Positions 13,550 to 19,286 of a stretch of 20,017 nt of DNA are shown here, piece after piece. Source of the stretch: a virus; the IMG/VR virus record IMGVR_UViG_3300017971_000882, positions 1 through 20,017 of that record; one strand, given 5' to 3'. The notes under the pieces were generated by a model. It was not told where the DNA came from. It did not search any database and saw only the letters and a list, made by a program, of their open reading frames with translations. Each line of letters begins with the position of its first letter. The stretch's first letter is position 1. A program made the translations under genes and the position numbers.

Positions 13550-14659
13550 TTATAGGTTGGTTTGACGGTAAACAGCAAATGGACGCTTACAAAGCGAGCC
13601 GGCGGTAGCGTTAGAGTAATCCTCAAGATACTCTTTAGCACGCTGCTCAACTCCTAAGCTTTGGAATTTGCTCGGAACAACCTGTACAAATGTACGGCGG
13701 TCATCAGTCGAGAATTCGCTGTCTGTGATTTCTGCGTAGTAATACGCAACGTTTTGGCCACCGTTAGCACCGTTCAATTCAGGAACTGAAACAATGCGAA
13801 GCTTCGGATAGTTCTCACGAATCCAATCCAAAACACTGTTGCCAAAATCTGATGTTACAGTCATGTAATCAACAACGTCAGAAGCCACAGCCATTACGAT
13901 ATTATCGTTGGTTGGGTCTACACGGTCATTAGACTGTACACGTAAGCCACGCAATCCAGCACGGATATCGGCTGTAATCTGCAAGAATGTTGCAGCAGCC
14001 CAGCCGCCTGTTGGAGCATTCACATAAGGCAACAACTGAGGGTCATTCAAGAAACCGTAAGTGCGGTTCGTGCCATCGTTGTAACCAAAGAAGCCAACGC
14101 GGTTACGTTGAATTTCAAGTGCCTCTGCAGCCGCATTACGCTTTTGGCCAGCAGAATCAATTTTAATGCGTGCAGCACGCTTGCTTTCAAGGATGCCTTC
14201 ACGCATACCTTCTTCAAAGCGAACAATGGTGCGGCGCTCAAAGTTGGTATTCCAGCTTGCAAGAGGAATATCGGTATAGTCGCCATACGGCTGAGTTTTA
14301 CCAATATACTCAAGAACACCTTGTACAATTTCTTCATCTTCCCAAGAGCCTTGGGTAGTGATACCAATAAGCGAATCAATGCGCTTTGGCGATGTAACAA
14401 TGTGAACAAAACCAGGTAGCCATTCTTGTAAGAACTGAACCGGCGTTGCAATGCTTGGCGTAGATAGCGAACTTACTAAGCCAGCATCTTCGGCATAACC
14501 AGCAGATTGCGCCATTTGCGCCAAATCAGCATGGTCAAACGCAATACCCATCTTTTCGAGGGCATCCATGGTTTGCATAGTGATTGATTTCTTGTCTTTA
14601 AATACAAGAGGTTTCATGCCCAAAGCTGAGCGGTTGAACGTTTCTTTTGCAGGTAACAT
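13550..14659 (-). CDS. Major capsid protein (DUF2184, HK97 fold)
   Basis: The protein has 369 residues, with ATG 14659 and AAGGAG at 14669-14674, 9-10 bases upstream and overlapping the previous stop. DUF2184 features: MDALEKMGIAFDHADLAQMA (residues about 30-50), the STPSIATPVQFLQEWLPGFVHIVTSPKRID segment, GSWEDEEIVQGVLEYIGKTQPYGDY, and the E-loop/spine region with NFERRTIVRFEEGMREGILE. A GFFGYNDGTNRTYGFLNDP motif and a C-terminal GVEQRAKEYLEDYSNATAGSLCKRPFAVYR complete it. It forms the icosahedral shell. The N-terminal about 45 residues may be removed by the DUF2213 protease, but no cleavage site can be assigned here. Confidence 0.94.
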   Translation of the reverse strand: MLPAKETFNRSALGMKPLVFKDKKSITMQTMDALEKMGIAFDHADLAQMAQSAGYAEDAGLVSSLSTPSIATPVQFLQEWLPGFVHIVTSPKRIDSLIGITTQGSWEDEEIVQGVLEYIGKTQPYGDYTDIPLASWNTNFERRTIVRFEEGMREGILESKRAARIKIDSAGQKRNAAAEALEIQRNRVGFFGYNDGTNRTYGFLNDPQLLPYVNAPTGGWAAATFLQITADIRAGLRGLRVQSNDRVDPTNDNIVMAVASDVVDYMTVTSDFGNSVLDWIRENYPKLRIVSVPELNGANGGQNVAYYYAEITDSEFSTDDRRTFVQVVPSKFQSLGVEQRAKEYLEDYSNATAGSLCKRPFAVYRQTNL

Positions 14660-15199: not shown

Positions 15200-15796
15200 T
15201 TACTCCTCGTTACCGTTAATGTAAGCCTCTGCTTCATCCATTGCTTCGCCGGCATCTTCACCGGTAGCAATAACGCGAGGCTGTGGATTTGCCTGTAAGA
15301 AAGCATTTAAAGCCGTAAGCTCTGTGCCCTCATCGCAAGCAATTGAAAGTTTATCAACGCCATACTTAGCAACGGCGTTTGCATCAACCATTTCTGAATG
15401 GTCAAACGCACCAATAACAGGAGATAAGCGGCCAACAATTGCCTCTTTCTCTGCAAGTGATTTTTGCATATCTGCAAGCGAAGGAGCTGCATCTTGTGCA
15501 GTTTTAAGGTTCGCATTTTCTTGCTTAAGCGTTGCAATTTCTTTTTGCAACTCAGCAACAACGCCGGCATCCATACCCTCACCTTTTTTCTCATCAGCTT
15601 TAGCCTTTTCCTCATCTTCGGCTTTTTTCTTGGCTGCTTCTTCTTCCTCGGCATCCTTAGCTGATTTCATATCCTTAACGGTGCTCATGCACTCATCAAG
15701 ACCTTTTTTCATATCACCAACCATAGTGGCCAGTTTTTCAAGAGTCATATCGCCGTCTTCGGCTTTTTTACCCTTATCTTCGTTTTCGCCTGCCAT
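15200..15796 (-). CDS. Nested in-frame scaffold protein from internal start
   Basis: An in-frame ATG at 15796 (Met187 of the full protein) is preceded by GAGGAG with a 6-base spacer, a better ribosome binding site than that of many annotated starts in this window. It begins exactly at the junction between the protease domain and the coiled-coil part, giving a 198-residue product starting MAGENEDKGKKAEDGD. Nested scaffold genes sharing the protease's stop are known in lambda (C/Nu3) and relatives. The same RNA may therefore supply many scaffold copies and few protease-scaffold copies. Expression is inferred from sequence only. Confidence 0.6.
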   Translation of the reverse strand: MAGENEDKGKKAEDGDMTLEKLATMVGDMKKGLDECMSTVKDMKSAKDAEEEEAAKKKAEDEEKAKADEKKGEGMDAGVVAELQKEIATLKQENANLKTAQDAAPSLADMQKSLAEKEAIVGRLSPVIGAFDHSEMVDANAVAKYGVDKLSIACDEGTELTALNAFLQANPQPRVIATGEDAGEAMDEAEAYINGNEE

Positions 15797-16354
15797 TGCA
15801 AACTCCTCGCTATCAATTGAAAAAGTTAACTTTTCTGAGCTATCCAAAACTGCAACGTCTTTTCCCATTCTACCGGTTCCAACAGATGCGATATGGTTAC
15901 CTCTTATTCGCCTTTGTACTACATCATAGGTCACCCCGTCAAATTCGCCACTTTCTAGCTCATACTCACAACGGTAACCGCACGACAAATCACGCTTCCC
16001 GGATTCAACCGATTCGGTCAAATTATCCGAAAATAATTTAATGTTGGCGCGTAAGTAAGGGTATTCAAAATAAACGTCCTCACCTATAACACCCTCAACG
16101 CCCTTTTCCTCAGGTGAGGTTCCAAACGCTTCACCAAGCATTGTATGCTCATCAATCCACGGCACAAGCTTAAATGAATCAATTGCATCTTTGCTGCTTA
16201 ATTCCTCAGCTGGACGCAATACATTGTAAAGCTTGTCTGGCTCAAGCCCTGGTAAGCCAATTGACTTTCCCAGATACTGGTAAACCCCAACCTTACTAAT
16301 GGGGTTCCCTTTAATTTCTACCCAGCCGTTGCCGTCTAACTCTCTTGCACTCAT
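15200..16354 (-). CDS. Head maturation protease fused to scaffold (DUF2213)
   Basis: The protein has 384 residues; its ATG overlaps the Mu F-like gene's stop as ATGA (16351-16354). Residues 1-175 are the DUF2213 domain, thought to be a prohead protease. Visible candidates for catalysis are His70 (PWIDEHTMLG) and Ser124 (KRDLSCGYRCEY), the His/Ser spacing expected for serine herpes-type prohead proteases, plus the conserved RGNHIASVGTGRMG (151-164). Residues 187-384 are a highly charged Lys/Glu/Ala coiled-coil scaffold, with a Lys/Glu/Ala-rich run around 230-260 and a heptad-like ELQKEIATLKQENANLKT at about 268-285. A separate scaffold can be made from an internal start. The protease function is inferred from family knowledge. 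Confidence 0.85.
   Translation of the reverse strand: MSARELDGNGWVEIKGNPISKVGVYQYLGKSIGLPGLEPDKLYNVLRPAEELSSKDAIDSFKLVPWIDEHTMLGEAFGTSPEEKGVEGVIGEDVYFEYPYLRANIKLFSDNLTESVESGKRDLSCGYRCEYELESGEFDGVTYDVVQRRIRGNHIASVGTGRMGKDVAVLDSSEKLTFSIDSEEFAMAGENEDKGKKAEDGDMTLEKLATMVGDMKKGLDECMSTVKDMKSAKDAEEEEAAKKKAEDEEKAKADEKKGEGMDAGVVAELQKEIATLKQENANLKTAQDAAPSLADMQKSLAEKEAIVGRLSPVIGAFDHSEMVDANAVAKYGVDKLSIACDEGTELTALNAFLQANPQPRVIATGEDAGEAMDEAEAYINGNEE
15803..15808 (-). promoter_or_regulatory. Internal ribosome binding site for nested scaffold
   Basis: GAGGAG in the coding sense lies 6 bases before the in-frame ATG at 15796. It encodes Glu183-Glu184, so it could be chance codon use, but the exact spacing and its coincidence with the domain boundary argue for function. 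Confidence 0.6.
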
Positions 16355-17265
16355 GATTGCTCACCGTTTTTAAATTCTATTACCGGGCGCATTCTGCATT
16401 TGCAGTTTATGGCCTGTCCAGGTATTCCACGCTCGCCGGTCTTTTCGTCTATTATAGGCAAATCATCGAAACTGAAAACCCCACCGTTCAAACCAGCAGG
16501 CCAACGCTGCTTGTGATGCTCCCTTGGTTCTTTGCCGCCACCACTATGCAACCACTCAAACTTGGTAATGCCTACCGATTCCATTCGGGCCTTATTTATT
16601 GAGTTATAAGCTTTCCTTGTTTGATCTAGCGCAATGTTTTTGGCACGGTTTTTTGCAATGCGCTTTTGGCTTTTAAGTGATTCGTTGATAGTTGGTATTA
16701 ATTCAGCCAAGCCGCTGCCTGTCATAATGCTACGGTCAACAGCCCCAACAACTTGGTCGAAATAGCGGCTTTGTATGCTGGTAATCAATTTTACGTTTGC
16801 ATTAAATGCAGACTTGGCAACTTCCTTTACATCGGCGCTCACGATGCTGGCATCAATAGTTAGGCCGCCGCTTAATTCCTTGAGGCTGGTTTCCAATGCT
16901 TTTTGGCTAACGTTGTCGATACCACCCAACATTTGCTTGGCAATATCCTTGCTCTCATCGTTAAAGATTTTGGCCCACTTGGCCATGAGCTTGTTGGTAA
17001 TGATTCTTGATTGGCTGGCAATGCTGCTGTCCATGGCCGCATCCTCAACAAAATATTCTTTGCTGGTTTCAGAGGTATAAAGTTGCTTAAGCTGTTTCTC
17101 AACATCGGCAGCCATCTTATTGATTAGCTTGTCAATTTCCCGTGTATAACGAGCAGCAATTGCGGCGTTATATTCTAGCGGTGTTCCACGTGAAACACTG
17201 TTAGGCTTAAACTTTTCAGCCCAAGCTTTGCGGCCTGGGCTTTGTGGAAACGGGTTGCGTGCCAT
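16351..17265 (-). CDS. Head morphogenesis protein, Mu F-like
   Basis: The protein has 304 residues; its ATG overlaps the portal stop as TAATG (17263-17267). The N-terminal two-thirds are helical. The C-terminal domain (about 190-296) has the Mu F-like signature: RAKNIALDQTRKAYNSINKA, GITKFEWLHSGGGKEPREHH, then RGIPGQAINCKCRMRPVIEF with the PGxxxNCxC motif (Cys288, Cys290). Such minor head proteins bind the portal and are ejected or retained in few copies; the SPP1 gp7 relative binds the portal. The position right after the portal is standard. The trailing residues KNGEQS are unremarkable. Confidence 0.9.
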   Translation of the reverse strand: MARNPFPQSPGRKAWAEKFKPNSVSRGTPLEYNAAIAARYTREIDKLINKMAADVEKQLKQLYTSETSKEYFVEDAAMDSSIASQSRIITNKLMAKWAKIFNDESKDIAKQMLGGIDNVSQKALETSLKELSGGLTIDASIVSADVKEVAKSAFNANVKLITSIQSRYFDQVVGAVDRSIMTGSGLAELIPTINESLKSQKRIAKNRAKNIALDQTRKAYNSINKARMESVGITKFEWLHSGGGKEPREHHKQRWPAGLNGGVFSFDDLPIIDEKTGERGIPGQAINCKCRMRPVIEFKNGEQS

Positions 17266-19286
17266 TAGTCTTTCGCGCTACTCCATTGCTCATTTTCCAA
17301 GATGATTGGTTCATCCGGTATTTCAATTTGGCCAATGCGTGCAATGTCAGCCTCAGTCGGTGCGTACTTTAAACTGATGTGCGGCAAGTAGGCTTCATGC
17401 CTTGGAACTCCACCAACCAGTTTTATTTCGTTGTGGCGTTGGTGCAAATCAGGTGAATCAAGCATAACCACAATGGCCCTATACTCACCCTCACCCATCA
17501 CACGGATTTCACCGGTAGGCTTGGCAATCAATGGCTGGTAAGCATAGCTTGGCTCCGGTATATCCTCGCTGCTGTACATCAATGTTACGTGCAACTTATC
17601 TGGCTCGATAAGGTCATCAATGCCGGCCTTGGCTGCTGCAGCAAAATACTTGGCTGCATCACGGGAACGAGGCTTGACGCTTACATAGCCATTACGGATT
17701 GCATCCATAGCAAATATCCAATCTTGCTGGTCATTGGCTTTGGCTTGCTGCTTTTCTGCCTCGTTTAAATCAATTTCATTTTCCTCAACTTCACTTTCGT
17801 TTTCTTCCTCGGGCACGCCGTCAATCTCGATATCGTTATACCCAGAATCATCATCCTCAGAAATACGCTTGCGCGAATCATAACCATCAATACTGCCAGC
17901 ATTAACCAAGTTGAGGTCAGTGCGGCTTTTGCTTTCATTGAGCTCAGCAATTTCTTTTTCAGAAAGCACTTTAAGCGAGTTCCAGTTTATTTCGACCTCA
18001 GCGTTAATGCCCTCAGACTTTAAAAGCAGCTCATAATGGCGCTCTAAAACTGGCTCATATTCATCGCTTTGTATGCTTTCCAGTTCCTCGTGGTAGCTGT
18101 CCTCCTCGTACTCACCGGTCGCATTAAAGCCCTTGGGTGAGGTGCCAAGCAACTTGGTTGCCGGCGTGCGTGCAATAGCTGATACCAATTGATATTGGGT
18201 CATAACGGTAACGTCAAAGTCAGTGAGCGTGGTGTCGAACTGCTCCATCTTTTCGTTTTCACCCAATACTTTTACGCCATAGTTATCACGGATTGCGGCC
18301 CACTCTTGCATTTTTTCGGTGAATTCTTGCTCATTGGCAATGGCTGCCTCCATATCAACATAAAGGCCGGTTGTGCGTTTGGTCATGGCCAATTGCGGCC
18401 CCTCGTTTGCTGTACGCTCAGCTGCATATACACGCTCGTAAATTAGCTGGGTAAGCGACAAACCGCCATAAGTGTACGTTGGCTTTAAAACGTCTGGCAC
18501 TTCGTCATAACGTGCGATTACAAGGTGTGAGCGGTGGTAACGCTTGCCACTGATGCGCCAATACGTTGGCTCGTAAAACTCAGGGCTTCCAGGGTTGCCG
18601 CTTGCCTCCATGCTCAGCTCTGGGGTTATCCAGTACGGGTCAACCTGAATCATGCCCTTGTATGAACCCTTTTTAACGCCATCAATATTAAACGGCTTTT
18701 GGTAATACTGTTGGTCAGTGCTTTCAACATTAAAAATCATAATGCGAATGCCAAAGATGCGATTGTGGCGGCCATACTCGACAAGGTTCTTTTTGACCTT
18801 GTATTTCTTATCAAGCTTTCTGATTGTGGCACGCTGCTCTGGGGTAAGCGTTTGGCCATCATTGGTTGTAAGTTCCCAGCCTTTGCGTGCAGCGTCTTTT
18901 GGTGATTGGCTGCAGGCTTTATTTACCAGCCAGTTTTGAGCAAGTATTGCGCACGCCTGATAACCAATAAAGCTTTGTGCGCCATACCAGCAAAAGATTG
19001 AATCGGGTAATTGGTTGCTAAGGGTAAAAGCGGCTTTAAGGCTGCCACCATCCATTGCAAAACCTTTGGCCTCCTCAACGCCATCGGTGGCAACGTTTAC
19101 CACCTTGCTTGGCATTTTAGGAACAACCTGTATGGCGTTTTTTTCAAGCCATGATTTAGGGTTTCCAATTCTGAAAAATGTGTCGGTGCTAAAATAGCCG
19201 TTACCGGTTTTATTTATTAGCTCATCATCTTTGCTTTTATCTTCAACCGGTGCCGGCAAAGCCTTATTTTTTTTGCGACCAAACAT
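17265..19286 (-). CDS. Portal protein (DUF1073) with C-terminal Acb1-like 2H phosphoesterase domain
   Basis: The protein has 673 residues; its ATG directly abuts the terminase stop. Residues about 35-480 are the DUF1073 portal: SIFCWYGAQSFIGYQACAIL (96-115), VEYGRHNRIFGIRIMIF, the clip/stem region with RTTGLYVDMEAA and LVSAIARTPATKLLGTSPKGFNATGEYEE. Residues about 480-515 form an acidic Glu/Asn-rich linker. Residues about 525-673 show two HxT/S motifs, H566-V-T568 (KLHVTLMY) and H636-I-S638 (LPHISLKY), 70 residues apart, the signature of 2H phosphoesterases. Tyr534, Glu664 and Trp668 sit at the same distances from these histidines as substrate-contacting residues I recall in T4 Acb1 (Y12, E141, W147), give or take two residues. 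T4 Acb1 destroys cyclic nucleotides made by CBASS defence. Pfam/InterPro, as I recall, already groups DUF1073 and this domain under Acb1-like names. Twelve portal copies form the DNA gate; anti-defence activity is inferred. Confidence 0.9.
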   Translation of the reverse strand: MFGRKKNKALPAPVEDKSKDDELINKTGNGYFSTDTFFRIGNPKSWLEKNAIQVVPKMPSKVVNVATDGVEEAKGFAMDGGSLKAAFTLSNQLPDSIFCWYGAQSFIGYQACAILAQNWLVNKACSQSPKDAARKGWELTTNDGQTLTPEQRATIRKLDKKYKVKKNLVEYGRHNRIFGIRIMIFNVESTDQQYYQKPFNIDGVKKGSYKGMIQVDPYWITPELSMEASGNPGSPEFYEPTYWRISGKRYHRSHLVIARYDEVPDVLKPTYTYGGLSLTQLIYERVYAAERTANEGPQLAMTKRTTGLYVDMEAAIANEQEFTEKMQEWAAIRDNYGVKVLGENEKMEQFDTTLTDFDVTVMTQYQLVSAIARTPATKLLGTSPKGFNATGEYEEDSYHEELESIQSDEYEPVLERHYELLLKSEGINAEVEINWNSLKVLSEKEIAELNESKSRTDLNLVNAGSIDGYDSRKRISEDDDSGYNDIEIDGVPEEENESEVEENEIDLNEAEKQQAKANDQQDWIFAMDAIRNGYVSVKPRSRDAAKYFAAAAKAGIDDLIEPDKLHVTLMYSSEDIPEPSYAYQPLIAKPTGEIRVMGEGEYRAIVVMLDSPDLHQRHNEIKLVGGVPRHEAYLPHISLKYAPTEADIARIGQIEIPDEPIILENEQWSSAKD

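Follow-up and report, generated by a model that had tools for sequence, protein, structure and literature searches.

A putative internal start for a nested scaffold protein in phage DUF2213 head protease genes

We report that a DUF2213 gene, a type of phage gene that encodes a head maturation protease, very probably also has its own second start for a shorter scaffold protein, judging from its sequence and from those of its relatives. The putative start consists of a Shine-Dalgarno sequence (SD) and an in-frame ATG between the protease and scaffold parts of the gene, and both elements recur at the corresponding position in most of the related genes that we compared.

An internal SD and ATG in a head protease gene

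The gene lies on the minus strand of a 20,017-base virus record (hereafter the window, meaning the whole stretch of DNA analysed), in a head-and-tail module that comprises the end of a terminase gene and genes for a portal, a Mu-F-like protein, the DUF2213 protein, a cement protein, the major capsid protein (13550–14659) and the tail. Pfam, the PHROG category 'head maturation protease' and a structural model together mark the 384-amino-acid DUF2213 product (15200–16354, minus strand) as a probable maturation protease with a scaffold domain attached. Its start codon overlaps the stop codon of the upstream Mu-F-like gene and is preceded, with a spacer of 5, by GGTGAG (16360–16365, minus strand; duplex energy –7.8), the probable SD of the full-length start. 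A Pfam search of the full protein with E-values up to 0.001 returned DUF2213 as the sole domain, at residues 5–172 (15839–16342, minus strand). Elsewhere in the module, the portal protein (17265–19286) ends in an anti-CBASS domain of the Acb1-like kind (PF23474, residues 534–666; also PHROG 755), possibly a counter-defence enzyme fused to the portal.

Within the DUF2213 gene, reading along the minus strand, GAGGAG (15808–15803) is followed by a 6-nt spacer, TTTGCA, and then by an in-frame ATG (15796–15794) that encodes Met187. An earlier note on this DNA had proposed a nested scaffold gene here, and the coordinates it gave agree with the sequence, as do its lengths of 384 residues for the full gene and 198 for the nested reading frame (15200–15796, minus strand), which has its frame and stop codon in common with the protease gene. 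The note had also placed the ATG exactly where the protease ends and the scaffold begins. The ATG is indeed in this border region, but Met187 lies 15 residues beyond the Pfam domain, within a linker predicted to be disordered (residues 175–202, 15749–15832, minus strand; pLDDT <50), and the long helices start from residue 205.

Eight adjacent Glu-Glu codon pairs occur in the window gene, and only two of them read GAG-GAG. One is the internal site and the other is at the end of the gene (15208–15203, minus strand), where this second in-frame GAGGAG lies 11 nt before the cement-gene ATG (15191) and is probably the cement SD. The choice of GAG-GAG at these two sites leans toward design. The duplex energy of the internal SD was –8.4, compared to –7.8 for the full-length SD, and across 14 annotated phages the internal duplex was stronger than the main one in 11, equal in one and weaker in two, a comparison that is biased because the internal value was the best among several candidates. 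When we shuffled codons with the protein and codon usage held fixed, using a locus (L001) that encodes a protein with 100% identity to that of the window, an equally strong SD arose in ~27% of shuffles. Taken alone, the window SD is not significant against such shuffles, and a single site is weak evidence. Because the site was unremarkable by this measure, we built a test of conservation across relatives, and the case depends on that conservation.

Conservation of the internal site across DUF2213 genes

We gathered 190 loci, duplicates among them, from viral contigs, GTDB genomes and phage records. A DUF2213 frame was recovered from 189 of these, and the 184 genes with a GNHxA anchor motif (the five without it were set aside) were clustered at 70% identity into 102 representatives. 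An ATG was present 19–50 codons beyond GNHxA in 95 of the 102, and 86 of these 95 ATGs were preceded by an SD match of 4 nt or longer, compared to a mean of 45.9 and a maximum of 57 in 1000 codon shuffles. We also chose starts blind to the SD, by taking whichever ATG came first from +22 onward and then looking for an SD tetramer 5–11 nt upstream. This procedure found a tetramer at 80 of the 95 ATGs, against 39.3 expected from 2000 synonymous resamplings that, like the codon shuffles, ignore relatedness (standard deviation 3.5, maximum 51). By comparison, tetramers preceded 112 of 922 other in-frame ATGs in the same genes and, within the same region, 335 of 3097 non-ATG codons and 3/83 and 0/4 out-of-frame ATGs. 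The ATG itself was present at 95 of 102 domain boundaries versus 541 of 1095 windows elsewhere. The distance between SD and ATG has the classic profile: for the 95 ATGs, tetramers were found at 20–47% for distances of 6–8 nt (47% at 8 nt), at 19% for 9–11 nt, at ~1% for 12 nt and at none for 13–22 nt.

Many of the 95 genes are not independent, as only 13 representatives survive thinning to <50% domain identity; the ATG was present in all 13 of these and the SD in 10. The nearest divergent relative of the window gene (L003, 62–66% identity) keeps the arrangement AAGGAG-TTTGCA-ATG. We then examined synonymous diversity within clusters of genes that had not been filtered for the SD. In a 22-gene cluster, diversity at codons –5 to –1 was 0–0.09 against a mean of 0.21, and in an 18-gene cluster the SD codon was GAG in 17 of 18 genes. 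In a smaller cluster, that of L126, one of the SD codons was more diverse (0.4) than the mean (0.26), and 2 of the 11 clusters had no common ATG column. The SD codons are thus constrained at the nucleotide level in the two largest clusters, with the smaller clusters uninformative or mixed. A separate synonymous test used only 147 SD-bearing genes and is hence biased. Around the internal start, the RNA had less structure than codon resampling would give (mean z +0.73, s.e. 0.11, n = 87, all SD-bearing genes).

Under an extended SD rule, 87 of the 102 representatives had an SD before an ATG, in five the sole SD was upstream of GTG or TTG, and 10 had neither. In five genes without a core SD (L011, L055, L063, L110 and L022), a GGTG(A) shared by all of them lies upstream and pairs with the extended anti-SD. 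L152 has no ATG at the boundary, and its only candidate there is a GTG with GGAGG at +47. The 10 genes with neither were L004 (which has AGGGGG), L009 and L113, all three lacking a 4-nt match, and seven genes (L124, L125, L153, L168, L172, L178 and L185) in which a domain has been inserted after the protease; L009 is left with no SD match. We rejected the treatment of these seven as plain exceptions: in every one, an SD-ATG is found beyond the insert, where the scaffold part begins, in frames that also contain other SD-like matches. Four of the inserts are LPD3 domains; PBECR1, a nuclease-like domain, is present in L178 and was also matched in L125, with a score under the curated cut-off; and L153 contains other small domains. 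Such domains between protease and scaffold are possibly capsid cargo. Another gene, L123, ends after the protease and has neither a scaffold part nor the site, its late ATG being preceded by a pyrimidine stretch.

We applied the extended rule to 11 further genes, namely five that had been set aside or were unanchored (L021, L108, L118, L120 and L121, with L108 and L121 near-identical) and six fetched later. Eight had the site, and it was absent from Xanthomonas KPhi1, Shewanella MSO-5 and Aphanizomenon CL131. Conservation of the internal ATG and SD among DUF2213 relatives was the check that the earlier note had suggested for its proposal; most relatives bear it out, far above a codon-aware null, but these three do not. 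Collectively, the sequence comparisons point to conservation of an internal start codon, together with its ribosome binding site, across DUF2213 genes, and given the representatives and further genes that lack it, the nested SD-ATG is widespread, not universal.

Two of the loci had unusual features of their own. In L168 (3200–3710), the scaffold frame enters regularly spaced repeats (GTTTCAATCCACGCCTCCGCGCGGGAGGCGAC) that resemble a CRISPR array and reflect either an assembly join or a real insertion. In L005 (415–930), a stretch upstream of DUF2213 and in the same frame resembles a NUDIX box.

Could such a pattern arise without a start codon being used? Single genes often acquire an SD when their codons are shuffled (a null mean of 46 in 95, and ~0.27 for the window), as would be expected if the Glu-Glu or Lys-Glu of the linker merely happened to be encoded by GAG and AAG ahead of a methionine. 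However, the count of 80 against 39.3 noted above exceeds a null in which the protein is already fixed, and the residues encoded over the SD differ among lineages (SEEFAM, SRGLVM, AMEIKM and DEGNEM), making coincidence extremely improbable. We also regard it as very unlikely that the SD-like stretch, instead of marking a start, makes ribosomes pause and so lets the protease fold before the scaffold is synthesized. The stretch does lie at the predicted domain boundary, but pausing requires no ATG, whereas the tetramers favour the pre-chosen ATGs (80/95) over non-ATG codons (335/3097); moreover, in the inserted-domain genes the SD-ATG lies one whole domain away from the protease.

A further alternative is that the scaffold is freed by proteolysis only, the full-length protein cutting itself in the linker while the internal start goes unused. 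A (V/I/L/F)D(S/A) motif, similar to the herpesvirus R site, does recur in the linker just 5' of the SD (for example, TFSIDSEEFAM and FTIDAKELAAM), and herpesviruses employ both routes (PMC12474303). Proteolysis by itself leaves unexplained the SD-ATG distance, how little synonymous codons vary in the two largest clusters and the SD-ATGs beyond inserts, and we judge this explanation improbable. An internal start that is used for translation accommodates these observations, and we adopt this reading below.

Predicted fold, scaffold part and candidate cleavage sites

An AlphaFold2 model of the window protein, built from a 50-row alignment (pTM 0.48), consists of a mostly well-predicted beta-rich domain (residues 1–174), the disordered linker and then the long helices. 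A structure search with the protease part of the model returned T4 gp21 (5jbl; Z 9.9, rmsd 2.9, 127 residues aligned), the varicella-zoster virus (VZV) protease (1vzv; Z 8.5, rmsd 2.9, 112 aligned) and the pseudorabies virus protease (Z 8.1). Rows 1–35 of the results were all proteases of the T4 gp21/herpesvirus type and unrelated rows had Z ≤4.6; models that lack a clear match often reach a best Z of 7–8. Foldseek alone gave a weak signal (best E 1.4e-3), and the annotators of Serratia phage MTx also report this match to T4. The catalytic residues of assemblin occur in the order His-Ser-His. His70, Ser124 and His154 were present in 50 of 50 aligned sequences and in the expected assemblin order, the comparison being by order alone. 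The predicted fold supports the DUF2213 domain being a protease of the T4 gp21/herpesvirus assemblin type.

In the C-terminal part, the model predicts one long helix at residues 205–251 (15602–15742, minus strand), probably a coiled coil from its length and composition, and two more at residues 263–289 and 293–314 (15413–15568, minus strand). A homologue provides further evidence on this part: PDB 9b40 contains gp24 of Pbunavirus Pa193, which belongs to the same family as the window protein. Residues 286–326 of gp24 form a helical pentamer beneath the capsid vertices, inside the capsid (PMC11042391). The accessible text of that paper, which describes Pa193 as a therapeutic phage, terms gp24 a putative scaffolding protein and contains neither the word 'protease' nor a nested start. 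In the E217 homologue, the nested product would begin at Met195 and be 283 amino acids long, and the gp24 vertex density (286–326) consequently falls within it. The predicted helices and this density support a scaffold identity for the C-terminal part. The window protein would then consist of an N-terminal protease and a C-terminal helical scaffold encoded beside the capsid gene, as in nested protease/scaffold genes.

If the protease matures the head, its substrates may share a recognition motif. Of 45 distinct arms of the capsid protein, 41 carried the motif (A/G/V/S/I/T)(M/L/E/Q)D(A/S/T/D) within the 22 residues that precede the mature domain, versus 41 of 1047 background windows, although this pattern was picked after inspection of the data and many of the 45 arms are closely related. 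The strict form MD(A/S) was found in 26 of 45 arms versus 1 of 1047 background windows. Within the DUF2213 proteins, MD(A/S) was present in the scaffold of 40 of 50 sequences versus the protease domain of 2 of 50, and xD(A/S) occurred within the final 30 scaffold residues in 39 of 50. In the window, the candidate sites (↓ marks the putative cut) are Asp262 of GMD↓A in the scaffold (15569–15571; Asp in all 50 aligned sequences), Asp367 of GED↓A, 17 residues from the C-terminus (15254–15256; Asp in 49 of 50), and, by motif comparison, the AED↓A of the major capsid protein at Asp58 (14486–14488), where the same protease may trim the arm; all three are on the minus strand. The E217 capsid protein has the motif AMD64↓S65. 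Its first 65 residues are unseen in the virion, which the authors ascribe to cleavage or disorder (PMC10329688), and the capsid protein of Pa193 is modelled from residue 66 (PMC11042391). The AMD↓A/S-like motif common to the capsid arm and scaffold is probably the substrate motif of the DUF2213 protease; we infer cleavage from the motif, with independent structural support at this one site (E217 AMD64↓S65, Pa193 residue 66).

We consider it highly likely that the window gene, through its internal SD-ATG, specifies two in-frame proteins, a protease-scaffold and a nested scaffold, with joint roles in assembly and cleavage. Initiation at 16354 would produce the 384-amino-acid protease-scaffold, and initiation at the internal SD-ATG (15808–15794) would produce a 198-amino-acid scaffold without the protease. 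With both starts on one message, the protease-scaffold would be in the minority. The scaffold-only form would co-assemble with the major capsid protein and a few copies of the protease-scaffold, which the common scaffold part would carry into the prohead. There, the protease would cleave the arm of the capsid protein, together with the long and short scaffolds, at (A/G)MD↓(A/S)-like sites, leaving a shell able to mature.

Known nested scaffold genes and implications

A scaffold frame within a protease gene, with frame and stop codon in common, is the arrangement of lambda C/Nu3 and Mu I/Z. According to its record annotation, lambda Nu3 lies inside C on the same strand and in the same frame, is 3'-coterminal with it and is just upstream of the decoration and capsid genes. 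The earlier note held that the window gene mirrors this pair. The gene layout does, but the predicted protease fold is closer to that of herpesvirus UL26/UL26.5, since the annotation places lambda C in the S49 peptidase family and Pfam found no S49 peptidase domain in the full DUF2213 protein (E up to 0.001), which in the model resembles T4 gp21 and the proteases of herpesviruses. Nu3 also failed as a positive control for SD strength: unlike in the window gene, the one SD-like stretch of annotated Nu3 lies far from its start, so nested genes of this class need no strong SD. In Mu, the scaffold start is again within the protease gene, with Z annotated as 'start site internal to gene I'. For the Mu-like phage PaMx73, a scaffold start at Val177 with the SD ACGAGGA has been proposed (PMC4378225), a Val codon in contrast to the ATG of the window gene.

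Herpesvirus UL26/UL26.5 has the assemblin protease fold predicted for the window protein, and its scaffold-only form is nested in frame in the 3' part of the gene. UL26.5 has its own transcript. These are eukaryotic viruses, whereas the window SD would serve one bacterial message. Herpesvirus proteins also have an M site near the C-terminus, like the candidate D367↓A, and in HSV1 the long form makes up ~10% of scaffold (PMC12474303).

The nested layout is thus already known from lambda C/Nu3, Mu I/Z, PaMx73 and herpesvirus UL26/UL26.5, and for DUF2213 it is apparently new as far as our searches reached. The earlier note was not aware of a nested start being described for DUF2213 proteins, and our literature search, from which subscription journals were mostly out of reach, likewise found no report; novelty is unproven. 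A nested gene on the same strand was annotated in none of the 27 phage records inspected. We rejected five apparent cases (Epa15, HHBS12_2, 20Oct199, Victoria and FoX7) because their additional features are on the opposite strand; in the first four, the gene's own strand has no annotation at all. In Pbunavirus FBPa35 (ON857938.1), most of the protease part is gone and the Mu-F-like gene joins the scaffold C-terminus directly, through either a deletion or an assembly fault, and the record annotates a short gene over the remainder.

The strongest new angle is the presence, in some genes, of cargo-like domains upstream of the nested start. We tentatively suggest, as a possibility we rate below even, that a phage branch of herpes-fold maturation proteases has long had the nested start throughout the family, with losses in some lineages, and that this start both sets the ratio of the two forms and keeps the protease and any inserted cargo (LPD3, PBECR1) out of most scaffolds, so that each capsid receives few cargo copies.

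The window protein has matches in 903 phage records, Pbunaviruses included. If the internal start is used, a structural gene has been missed in all 27 of the records inspected, and the Pa193 capsid-vertex density could derive from the scaffold-only protein. Cleavage of gp24, a question raised in the Pa193 paper (PMC11042391), would then become concretely testable. More broadly, the layout links phage head proteases with herpesvirus UL26/UL26.5, through both a predicted fold and a gene arrangement.
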